From contig NZ_FPEJ01000001.1 in the NCBI RefSeq assembly GCF_900117445.1, positions 124,001 to 188,000 of the forward strand: a stretch of DNA of 64,000 nucleotides, written 5' to 3'. This DNA is from Hyphomicrobium sp. NDB2Meth4. GTDB taxonomy: Bacteria > Pseudomonadota > Alphaproteobacteria > Rhizobiales > Hyphomicrobiaceae. The first letter of the stretch is position 1; every line of letters begins with the position of its first letter. A program made the position numbers and the translations under genes. Positions 18,966-21,253 of this stretch are shown one piece after another. Under the pieces are notes generated by a model. It saw only the letters and a program-made list of their open reading frames with translations. It searched no databases and was not told where the DNA came from.

Positions 18966-19175
18966 ATGGACGCTAAAAATCGATTGACCAAGAACGAGCA
19001 AGACGCAGAGCTGAACGAGGCCTTGCAGGAGACGTTTCCTGCCAGTGACGCCCTCGCCACCGGGGACGCCACTGCCACCGAACCCGATAGGCCCATCCAC
19101 AGACGGCCAGCGAAGATCGATAAAGCCCTGGTGGAGCAGCTCGCCAAGAACGTCGGCGCCAAACACGCCAAATAG
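18966..19175 (+). CDS. small hypothetical protein with EALQETFPASD motif
   Basis: 69 aa, hydrophilic and Ala/Asp-rich. The segment LNEALQETFPASDALA matches a short motif (E..ESFPASDP) that I recall in many small, probably stress-related proteobacterial proteins of unknown role. It has no signal or TM segment. It sits 63 nt after the tail-anchored small protein and upstream of lanM. Confidence 0.65.
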   Translation: MDAKNRLTKNEQDAELNEALQETFPASDALATGDATATEPDRPIHRRPAKIDKALVEQLAKNVGAKHAK

Positions 19176-19566
19176 CGCCGAGGCCAATTCTAGCGCGTGA
19201 CGGAAAAGCTTTCGCTTCCGGGCCGGAAATCGCCGACGCGGTCAAATCCGGCCCGTCCGCGTTTCCCGATCCATTTCGGGTTCGAATCCCGGTCGGGCAA
19301 TTCCACGAATACATCTCGTTGGATAAGCGCGGCTCACCCCAAAAAGTTCATGCTGGGATAGCTTGCAGCGGGTAACACATTAAGAAAATTGCAGAAATAC
19401 GGGCCCGAATTTATCGGACTAGGGGCCTCGCAAGGCGTCGCCGATTCCCGAAAAGTTATAGGATTTTTTCCCGTTACACTTTGCCACGCTTTCCTAGAGT
19501 GACGGGAGTGACAAGGTAAATCCCGGAGCCACCTTGTCTTGGCGCCACAATCCCAGGAGGAAGACA
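19176..19566. other. intergenic region upstream of lanM
   Basis: 391 bases. It contains the T-arm-like fragment at 19265-19303. From about 19380 on it is notably AT-richer than its surroundings (poly-T near 19465), and it ends in a strong AGGAGGA ribosome-binding site for lanM. The lanM promoter must lie here, but I cannot place it. Confidence 0.4.
19265..19303 (+). other. tRNA T-arm-like fragment
   Basis: CGGGTTCGAATCCCG at 19277-19291 is a perfect tRNA T-stem and loop. It is flanked by CCCGAT (19265-19270) and GTCGGG (19292-19297), which pair with one G-T. There is no D-arm or anticodon arm upstream, so this is not a tRNA gene. Confidence 0.45.
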
Positions 19567-19959
19567 ATGAAATTTGCGGCAAAGCTGATTGCGTCCGCCC
19601 TTTTTCTCGCCGGCACGGCCGTCGCACACGCCGACGTTGATGCCGCCCTGAAGGCGCTCGATCCCGACAACGACGGAACGATCGACATGCCCGAAGCCTT
19701 GGCCGGTGCGAAAGCCAAATTCGCCAAGCTGAACCCCGACAATGACGGCACGCTCGACGAGAAGGAGCTCAGCGGCATTCTTGACGCAGCTGCCCTGAAG
19801 GCAGCCGATCCTGACAACGACGGCACGCTCGACGAGAAGGAATACGCCGCGGTCGTCGAAGCCAAGTTCAAGGCCGCTAACCCGGACGACGACGGCACCG
19901 TCGATGCCAAGGAGCTCGCCTCCCCGGCCGGTCAGGATCTGATGAAGCTCATCCACTGA
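19567..19959 (+). CDS. lanM: lanmodulin (periplasmic lanthanide-binding EF-hand protein)
   Basis: 130 aa. A signal peptide (1-22, cleavage after AHA) exports a mature protein of 108 aa. Four 12-residue EF-hand loops lie at 32-43 (DPDNDGTIDMPE), 56-67 (NPDNDGTLDEKE), 81-92 (DPDNDGTLDEKE) and 105-116 (NPDDDGTVDAKE). All have Pro at position 2 and Asp at position 9, and the loops are only 12-13 residues apart; these are lanmodulin hallmarks, whereas calmodulin-type hands are about 24 apart. The ending KFKAANP...ELASPAG is nearly that of Methylorubrum LanM. The family binds lanthanides with picomolar affinity in the periplasm of organisms using XoxF-type dehydrogenases. EF2 and EF4 begin with Asn. 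AGGAGGA precedes ATG 19567. It is monocistronic, with its own terminator. Confidence 0.93.
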   Translation: MKFAAKLIASALFLAGTAVAHADVDAALKALDPDNDGTIDMPEALAGAKAKFAKLNPDNDGTLDEKELSGILDAAALKAADPDNDGTLDEKEYAAVVEAKFKAANPDDDGTVDAKELASPAGQDLMKLIH

Positions 19960-19986
19960 TCCAAGATCGGTCCACGCGATAATTCC

Positions 19987-20016
19987 AAGGGTCGGCCAAC
20001 ATGAGCCGGCCCTTTT
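19987..20016 (+). terminator. rho-independent terminator of lanM
   Basis: AAGGGTCGGC (19987-19996) pairs with GCCGGCCCTT (20005-20014, one G-T pair) around an 8-nt loop, and TTTT runs through 20016. It stands 28 nt after the lanM stop. Confidence 0.75.
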
Positions 20017-20243
20017 CCATGCGCCATGATCCGAGCGATGCCTTCGAGCAAAGAGGGCGCCCCGGCCCGATTCGGCGCTCGGCCGAGGCGCCCACGGCTG
20101 AGGGGAGAGGGATCGCCCCTACCCCGCCGATCGTTTGAGGCCGCACACCCGCGCGTTCGCATGCCAGGGCGTTTCAACGCCCAACCAGCGATGTTCACGA
20201 GAAGGTGTGCGCACCAGTCCCCACCTCGTATAGACAGCCCTCT

Positions 20244-20269
20244 GGATAAGTTCTAATCGTATATTATCC
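20244..20269 (+). promoter_or_regulatory. candidate operator dyad upstream of oxyR
   Basis: GGATAA and TTATCC form an inverted pair separated by 14 nt in an AT-rich stretch 22 nt before the oxyR ATG. LysR-type regulators commonly autoregulate through such dyads. It does not fit the four-tetramer OxyR consensus well. Confidence 0.25.
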
Positions 20270-20290
20270 GGCATCAGATCAGAGATTCTT

Positions 20291-21253
20291 ATGCCTCCGC
20301 ACGTCACCCTCAAGCAGCTTCGCTATTTCGATGCACTCGCACGCGAGCAGCACTTCGGCCGCGCCGCCGAATCGTGCGCCGTAACTCAGCCCGCGCTGTC
20401 GATGCAGATCCATGAGCTGGAAGAGCAGCTGGGCCTGCTTCTCGTCGAACGTACGCGCGCCGGCGTTCTGCTGTCAGACAAAGGGCGAGAGATCGCCACC
20501 CGAGCCGCACGCATCCTCGGCGACGTGCACGAGATGATCGAGTACGCCCAGCACTGCAATAATGTCTTGTCGGGCTCGCTGCGCCTCGGCGTCATTCCCT
20601 CGATCGCGCCGTATATGCTGCCCCCGCTCCTGCCTCTGCTGCGCGAGGGCTACCCCACGCTCGAACTGCACGTGCGCGAAACGCAGACACTGCCGCTCGT
20701 CCAGGAACTGATCGACGGCAAGCTAGACGTGCTGCTGCTCGCGCTCCCCATCATTCAGCCCGAAATCGAGACGCGCGCCTTGTTCGACGATCGCTTTCTT
20801 CTGGCGTTGCCGCCGGAACGCAAGCTCTCGAGCCGCGTACGCGCCACCAAGGATCTTCTTGAGCACGAGCGACTGTTGCTGCTCGAGGAAGGCCACTGCC
20901 TGCGCGAGCAAGCGCTCACCTATTGCAGCCTGCAACAGGCCTCGACCATCAACACCTTTGGCGTCTCGAGCCTGTCGACCATCGTCGAGATGGTCGCCGC
21001 CGGATACGGCATTACGCTGCTGCCCGAAATGTGCCTCAACGTCGAGCTGCGCGGACGCGATCTCGGCTTAACGCGCTTCGCCGACCCCGAGCCCTCTCGA
21101 TCGGTCGGGCTAGCCTGGCGATCGACCTCGCCGCGCACCGCAGATTTCGAAGCGCTCGCGCGCCTCATTAAGCTGGCATGGTCACAGGGATGCGTTCCGC
21201 CCGGCCGCAAGCATCCACGCCACACGCGCCCGCTCAGCGAGCCGTCGTCCTGA
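20291..21253 (+). CDS. oxyR: LysR-family peroxide regulator OxyR
   Basis: 320 aa. The N-terminal winged helix-turn-helix (QLRYFDALAREQHFGRAAE, then TQPALSMQIHELEEQLG) is followed by a LysR substrate domain. Cys203 and Cys212 in GHCLREQALTYC match the redox pair of E. coli OxyR (Cys199/Cys208) in context and in 9-residue spacing, so it should form the peroxide-triggered disulfide. There is no catalase or peroxidase gene adjacent. The C-terminal end overlaps the convergent DUF882 gene by 20 nt. Confidence 0.9.
   Translation: MPPHVTLKQLRYFDALAREQHFGRAAESCAVTQPALSMQIHELEEQLGLLLVERTRAGVLLSDKGREIATRAARILGDVHEMIEYAQHCNNVLSGSLRLGVIPSIAPYMLPPLLPLLREGYPTLELHVRETQTLPLVQELIDGKLDVLLLALPIIQPEIETRALFDDRFLLALPPERKLSSRVRATKDLLEHERLLLLEEGHCLREQALTYCSLQQASTINTFGVSSLSTIVEMVAAGYGITLLPEMCLNVELRGRDLGLTRFADPEPSRSVGLAWRSTSPRTADFEALARLIKLAWSQGCVPPGRKHPRHTRPLSEPSS

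Follow-up and report, generated by a model that had tools for sequence, protein, structure and literature searches.

The window analysed here, a stretch of 64,000 nucleotides from Hyphomicrobium sp. NDB2Meth4, contains on its forward strand an open reading frame (lanM1) that almost certainly encodes a lanmodulin, LanM1, predicted to bind lanthanide(III) far more tightly than calcium. The features of the locus, in window positions, are as follows.

19445..19473, + strand: core of a conserved promoter block, two TTCCCG repeats with starts 23 bases apart, 94-122 bases before the ATG
19460..19473, no strand assigned: AGGATTTTTTCCCG, a degenerate copy of GGGAA-W3-TTCCC with 8 of 10 arm bases; proposed operator, weak alone
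19555..19560, + strand: ribosome-binding site AGGAGG, ahead of the ATG at 19567
19567..19959, + strand: lanM1 coding sequence, 130 residues plus stop (profile match, PDB match, selection)
19567..19632, + strand: probable signal peptide of 22 residues, cleavage after AHA, read by eye
19660..19695, + strand: EF loop 1, DPDNDGTIDMPE
19732..19767, + strand: EF loop 2, NPDNDGTLDEKE, Asn at position 1
19807..19842, + strand: EF loop 3, DPDNDGTLDEKE
19879..19914, + strand: EF loop 4, NPDDDGTVDAKE, Asn at position 1
19987..20016, + strand: putative terminator-like hairpin followed by TTTT, after lanM1
20291..21253, + strand: LysR-type regulator gene downstream of lanM1, labelled by eye, in eight of eight genus genomes

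LanM1 scored 160.1 bits on the NCBIfam LanM equivalog model NF053806 (cut-off 135), and the four best matches in a PDB sequence search were all lanmodulins (6mi5, 8fns, 9pi2 and 8dq2, with E-values from 4.1e-38 to 3.1e-15). The first of these, 6mi5 at 4.1e-38, compares with 2.8e-6 for the best non-lanmodulin match, a radial spoke protein, and with 4.1e-5 for the best calmodulin. The profile search thus places the protein with LanM and not with the calcium EF-hand proteins, a check that the preliminary description of the locus had proposed. Membership criteria for LanM are set out in PMC10232371: four EF-hand motifs in fewer than 200 residues, adjacent EF-hands 12-13 and not ~25 residues apart, and Pro as the second residue of one or more loops. 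LanM1 has four loops in 130 residues, with gaps of 12, 13 and 12 residues in place of the ~25-residue separation of the calmodulin type, and carries both Pro at position 2 and Asp at position 9 in all four loops, as had been read from the sequence earlier.

Comparison with characterized lanmodulins places LanM1 near Mex-LanM of Methylorubrum extorquens AM1 (PDB 6mi5, 8fns), with which it is identical at 69 of 102 aligned residues. The two proteins share the four EF-hands, Pro2 and Asp9 throughout, gaps of 12-13 residues and the C-terminal ASPAG pattern that the preliminary description had likened to Methylorubrum LanM (KAANPDDDGTVDAKELASPAG in LanM1, KAANPDNDGTIDARELASPAG in Mex-LanM). They differ at the head of EF2, which is Asp in Mex-LanM and Asn in LanM1, and in genomic setting, since lanM of strain AM1 lies within the lut cluster (PMC9260416) whereas lanM1 stands alone. 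Hans-LanM of Hansschlegelia quercus (PDB 8dq2) likewise has four EF-hands, similar spacing and Asn heading some loops, but its Glu at position 9 of EF1-3 (PMC11845868), the criterion for the Hans type, is replaced by Asp in all four loops of LanM1, and the two are distant in the tree. The LanM of Methylobacterium aquaticum 22A is also encoded by an orphan gene away from lut (PMC9260416), but its first two loops have Thr and Lys at position 2, where LanM1 has Pro in all four. Between lanM1 and its closest relative (locus L015) dN was 0.072 and dS 0.97, indicating purifying selection. Model score, PDB matches, identity to Mex-LanM and dN/dS therefore establish lanM1 as a real, selected lanmodulin gene, which adds one more member to the known LanM family and whose product would be expected to share the fold and binding properties of that family. 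The N-terminus (MKFAAKLIASALFLAGTAVAHA) resembles a signal peptide by eye, and LanM1 is therefore probably periplasmic.

That the organism probably uses or handles lanthanides had been suggested from the window alone, and the whole genome (G000; 4.08 Mb, 17 contigs), when searched for xoxF, lut/TonB transporter and pqq genes, supports the suggestion. Seven PQQ alcohol dehydrogenases exceed the TIGR03075 cut-off; at the diagnostic position five carry DYD, the second Asp of which marks the lanthanide-type enzymes, one carries DWA, and one, which we take to be MxaF, carries DYA. The xoxF on contig C4 lies beside genes over the cut-offs of TIGR03871, TIGR03865, TIGR03861, TIGR03864, TIGR03866 and TIGR03863, a family set that constitutes a quinoprotein-linked ABC system and that, judging from the gene descriptions in PMC7391723, would correspond to Lut. 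Two pqqE genes exceed their cut-off, and three TonB receptors (LutH-like) are 42-45% identical to the receptor directly upstream of lanM in a Methylobacterium MAG; two of the three stand in tandem, near exbB- and exbD-like genes. All the PQQ alcohol dehydrogenases over the cut-off, the pqqE genes and the LutH-like matches lie outside the window, in keeping with the earlier remark that lanM1 has no lut, xox or pqq neighbours there; the nearest are a LutH-like gene 32 kb before the window and mxaF 57 kb after it.

A second lanmodulin, LanM2, also supports lanthanide handling, and went beyond what could be seen from the window: it is encoded in the same genome (C17:37244-37618) and scored 157.3 bits on the LanM model. 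Lanmodulins had been described as few, which does not hold up well, with 23 of 103 family genomes containing a LanM over the cut-off and 696 putative LanMs reported in PMC10232371. Within the genus (g1, eight genomes) four genomes have such proteins, two in G000, two in G033, one in G034 and three in G037; LanM2 occupies a syntenic place adjoining hemB (a neighbour labelled by eye) in four of the eight, and lanM1 is patchy, occurring in three. In the portions of the open-licence PMC literature covered, we recognised no description of a lanmodulin pair or of paralogues in one genome. The tree (36 rows) was built from an alignment in which 33 LanM proteins were kept; L019, L021, L029-L033 and further loci such as L042, L045-L047, L051, L052, L056, L059 and L060, some of them duplicates of the same contig, were left out, as were LanM copies outside the fetched loci. 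In it LanM1 grouped with five others (L015, L065, L040 and two from Methyloceanibacter; support 100/96) and LanM2 with three others (99/96). A tree with known LanMs had been suggested at the outset, and LanM1 fell in its Mex-LanM part, away from Hans-LanM; LanM2 too was nearer Mex-LanM than Hans-LanM. Two further proteins were observed on the way. G037 encodes a third lanmodulin over the cut-off (C2, L069 8083-8391), 48-50% identical to the other two types and with a copy of the palindrome discussed below ~2 kb before it. At L070 8030-8422 (- strand; G064:C5) lies a LanM 70% identical to LanM1 over its length, whose signal ends by eye in a lipobox-like LSAC-G, so that it may be a membrane-anchored lanmodulin; its upstream palindrome was not beyond chance.

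The earlier reading of the loops needs one refinement, in that loops 2 and 4 of LanM1 start with Asn, not Asp; the orthologue at L015 has Asp where EF2 of LanM1 has Asn. All four loops of LanM2 are headed by Asp; its EF2 carries Lys at position 2, and its EF4 has Ser at position 9. EF4 of Mex-LanM, a weak site (PMC10232371), is also headed by Asn in the PDB alignment, and changing that Asn to Asp raised the Gd stoichiometry from ~2.2 to 3.8 (PMC11561317). Since Asn heads both EF2 and EF4 of LanM1, the protein is predicted to have fewer tight sites, holding fewer than three lanthanides tightly. For a weaker EF2 the prediction is no more than moderate, because Hans-LanM also has Asn at loop position 1 (PMC11845868), yet La is held by EF1-3 of that protein in the crystal (PMC10232371).

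Returning to the gene neighbourhood, the LysR-type gene downstream of lanM1 is found in all eight genus genomes and so is probably outside the lanthanide system; in two of the eight, lanM1 lies within 1.2-1.5 kb upstream of it. A hairpin similar to that at 19987-20016 follows lanM1 in G037 (L098). An Rfam scan of the window returned tRNA only, and no match up to E = 1 was found in 19150-20300. Upstream of the LysR gene in eight of eight genus genomes, whether or not lanM1 is present, there is a separate GC-rich hairpin (GGGCGCCCCGGCC..GGCCGAGGCGCCC, window 20055-20093), the G037 copy of which has a paired change in the stem; it gave no Rfam match and may be a regulatory RNA or an attenuator acting on the LysR gene.

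The isolation of lanM1 looks derived. The G033 orthologue of LanM1, 77% identical, is encoded within the mxa locus. The genes there run mxaF, lipoprotein gene, NarL-type response regulator, a presumed DUF3617-like small gene, lanM1 and RGFFC (our label for a small secreted-protein gene with an RGFFCNAK motif), so that the regulator is next but one to lanM1 and mxaF is ~2.5 kb away. In G037, kinase, regulator and RGFFC genes are present at the mxa locus but lanM is not; lanM1 of that genome lies upstream of the LysR gene in the same arrangement as in the window. At the mxa locus of G000 itself, the lipoprotein and DUF3617-like genes are retained beside mxaF, and a 20-kb stretch there gave no match to the regulator, kinase, RGFFC or lanM. 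Beyond the genus, the 12 lanM loci with 1.5-kb flanks in genus g10 (L058 and L059, below the cut-off, and a second sub-cut-off copy of G048 stand outside this set) have the regulator adjoining lanM in nine cases and the order regulator-lanM-RGFFC in seven; in G040 the gene just past the regulator encodes XoxF. In Bradyrhizobium a regulator 41-44% identical adjoins lanM in five of five loci. The simplest reading is that the methanol dehydrogenase locus was the ancestral place and that the window gene moved, a direction that we infer from these arrangements. It is thus rather probable that lanM1 moved from the methanol dehydrogenase locus to its site upstream of the LysR gene, carrying with it a promoter block of ~55 bases.

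Some details of these neighbourhoods deserve separate record. The small secreted RGFFCNAK protein follows lanM in seven of the 12 g10 loci and in G033 (examples are L111 8041-8472 and L065 7457-7828), and the RGFFC gene in the mxa locus of G037 has a LanM1-type promoter block upstream. In Bradyrhizobium BTAi1 (L028 3401-11823) lanM, a NarL-type regulator and a LutH-like TonB receptor occur together; exbB/exbD lie 3-5 kb before lanM, the receptor and exbB/exbD fall within 6 kb, and the palindrome precedes exbB.

The promoter block itself, ~55 bases located 70-125 bases before the ATG, is conserved in the window, in G037 and in the non-syntenic G033 copy, that is, in two different places. A scan of 19200-20300 for the sigma-70 consensus gave no promoter-like site. 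Two TTCCCG 15-19 bases apart were also tried as a regulon marker and gave 11 matches in the genome against 7 for the reversed control; the pair therefore does not mark a regulon on its own. A longer consensus derived from the three LanM1 promoters recovered those three sites, by construction, and one new site, in the mxa locus of G037.

In the g10 loci, alignment of the regions upstream of lanM showed a longer common block with a palindrome, GGGAA-W3/4-TTCCC. At least nine of ten arm bases were present in 11 of the 12 loci, ten of them at 158-168 bases before the ATG, and 0 to 5 of 200 shuffles were equally good. Before lanM1 the palindrome has 8/10 arm bases in the window, 10/10 in G037 and 8/10 in G033, equalled by 13, 0 and 7 of 200 shuffles respectively; given the 13 shuffles, the case for the window copy rests on conservation. 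Eight of ten arm bases also arise at chance level before other lanM genes, including LanM2 of G033 and G034. In all four LanM2 genomes the best upstream match had 7 or 8 arm bases, again at chance level (26 to 170 of 200 shuffles), and the search pattern RGGAHWWWTTCCCG was absent from 16-17 kb around LanM2. The palindrome was likewise at chance level at six Methylobacterium lanM loci, and five Bradyrhizobium lanM loci had only 6-8 of 10 arm bases.

The pattern RGGAHWWWTTCCCG is the palindrome loosened to R at the first base and H at the fifth, and it matches lanM1 by construction, because it was loosened to admit the window copy. It occurs at seven distinct sites in G000, against 0.34 expected under a first-order model and 0.86 from composition, both computed from 273 kb of the genome. 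Besides lanM1, these sites are associated with LutH-like receptor 1 (~85 bases before the likely start), LutH-like receptor 2 (facing exbB), xoxF (~0.4-0.5 kb upstream) and a kinase/regulator pair, the remaining two being without a link. Within the genus there were 7, 7 and 11 distinct sites in the LanM1 genomes against 1, 1, 0, 0 and 0 in the other five, and the reversed pattern gave zero sites in all eight. G033 and G037 have the same receptor and exbB sites; the other sites inspected there (in G037, all of the eleven except C47 and C48) are beside regulators or without a known link. As to the kinase/regulator pair of G000, the site (G000:C6:15117; L134) lies just after the two genes, whose products share 32% and 38% identity with the pair at the mxa locus of G037, and the pair is a candidate for the regulator in this genome.

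In genus g10, 40 distinct sites were listed in G040 to G046; five at lanM were set aside, and ~3 kb around each of the other 35 was probed with 35 proteins, 20 windows shifted by 100 kb and drawn from four of the seven genomes serving as control (one probe, pqqE, was trimmed roughly, and its reading frame may be wrong). A probe gene was near 17 of the 35 sites against 1 of 20 controls (Fisher 0.0007), and the sole control match was ~1 kb from the lanM of G043. Six of the 17 had xoxF and four TonB receptors, one region having both; seven had a kinase or regulator only and one a single accessory gene, and 18 of the 35 sites were without a probe gene nearby. Without the kinase/regulator probes the comparison was 10/35 against 1/20 (p 0.034), and with xoxF or TonB only it was 9/35 against 0/20 (p 0.011). 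In Bradyrhizobium the palindrome stands upstream of exbB in four of five genomes, and among nine Methylobacterium and Methyloceanibacter genomes seven had no site. Across the 103 family genomes, those after G049 being assessed by counts alone, 349 matches against 47 for the reversed pattern overstate the excess, because the reversed control is not palindromic and symmetric sites were counted on both strands; the fairer comparison is that of distinct sites in G000 with the Markov expectation. Overall, the palindrome lies near lanM, xoxF and LutH-like genes above chance, and the window copy, being degenerate, is weak alone.

We regard GGGAA-W3-TTCCC as a candidate site for the control of lanthanide and methanol genes. 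It is conceivable, at slightly less than even weight, that it serves a lanthanide/methanol regulon as operator and that a response regulator of the NarL type reads it; candidates are the regulator of the C6 pair in G000 and those of the mxa loci of G033 and G037, with GGGAATTTTTCCC as a candidate target sequence. We recognised no report of such a palindromic site in the parts of the open-licence PMC literature covered. In Pseudomonas putida the LuxR-type response regulator of PedS2/PedR2 similarly acts on lanthanide-dependent dehydrogenase genes (PMC6115532), but the portions of PMC6115532 and PMC12997753 consulted name no DNA site.

In the mechanism that we propose, LanM1 would be a secreted periplasmic protein with four EF-hands that prefers lanthanide(III) over calcium and probably buffers or shuttles lanthanide between the LutH-like receptors of the outer membrane, the Lut-type ABC importer and XoxF. 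Its gene would originally have had a small secreted-protein gene and a NarL-type regulator as neighbours at the methanol dehydrogenase locus, and would have moved with its promoter block, in which the degenerate palindrome is the proposed operator; lanM2 has no such site beyond chance. More broadly, and only tentatively, lanM1 may belong to a lanthanide-acquisition regulon in which the palindrome also precedes LutH-like, exbB and xoxF genes in Hyphomicrobiaceae and exbB in Bradyrhizobium, is read by a NarL-type regulator often found beside lanM, and forms a switch carried out of the methanol dehydrogenase locus, with the two lanmodulins under different control.

These proposals have to be weighed against other readings of the same data. 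LanM1 might be an ordinary calcium EF-hand protein made lanmodulin-like by repeat convergence, and generic Pfam EF-hand models do match it over their cut-offs, as they would any LanM; yet the score on the LanM model, the gaps of 12-13 instead of ~25 residues, Pro2 in every loop, a Mex-LanM E-value 33 orders better than that of calmodulin and the scores of only 37.5 and 31.5 bits for the next two EF-hand places of the genome on the LanM model make this highly improbable. It is also improbable, if less extremely so, that lanM1 is a redundant paralogue being lost while lanM2 stays in its syntenic place by hemB. The persistence of LanM2 there in four of eight genus genomes and the relocated, patchy lanM1 would fit such a loss, but the low dN relative to dS against L015, the intact loops and the promoter block kept in all three LanM1 genomes, in two different places, argue against it.

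The role of LanM1 is a question distinct from its identity, and a function mainly in protection and homeostasis, in which free lanthanide is kept away from phosphate and membranes and the MxaF/XoxF switch is tuned, instead of delivery to XoxF, is a serious contender to which we give somewhat under an even chance. Methylobacterium can grow on methanol without lanM, and deletion of the gene in M. aquaticum 22A left methanol growth normal while causing aggregation, impaired membranes and periplasmic La deposits (PMC9260416); the occurrence of lanM1 in only three of eight genus genomes points the same way. Against this, co-purification of LanM with XoxF has been described for M. extorquens (recounted in PMC11845868), and an operator-like site is common to uptake and xoxF genes. 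That site could in turn be a general control element of methanol and quinoprotein genes, or of a broader two-component system, and not a lanthanide operator, which we hold to be a real possibility if not quite a balanced one: many sites adjoin histidine-kinase/response-regulator genes, and the palindrome is frequent in some family genomes without a LanM over the cut-off (11 matches in G068, 10 in G095). However, it also precedes LutH-like receptors and exbB, which belong to uptake and not to oxidation, and matches are commoner in the LanM genomes (mean 7.0, n = 23) than in the others (2.3, n = 80), kinship and completeness being uncorrected in this comparison.

In summary, the reading that we prefer is of a probably periplasmic lanmodulin under purifying selection, with the relocation from the mxa locus and the suggested operator as computed hypotheses. 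LanM1, with Asn at two loop heads, and LanM2 form a natural pair in which loop sequence may be related to the number and selectivity of tight sites. Bacterial sensing of rare earths and the switching of uptake and methanol genes are only partly known, and the full picture of the rare-earth switch has been called patchy (PMC9260416). If the proposed operator proves true, a palindrome common to lanM, LutH-like receptors and xoxF would offer a direct handle on the regulator.
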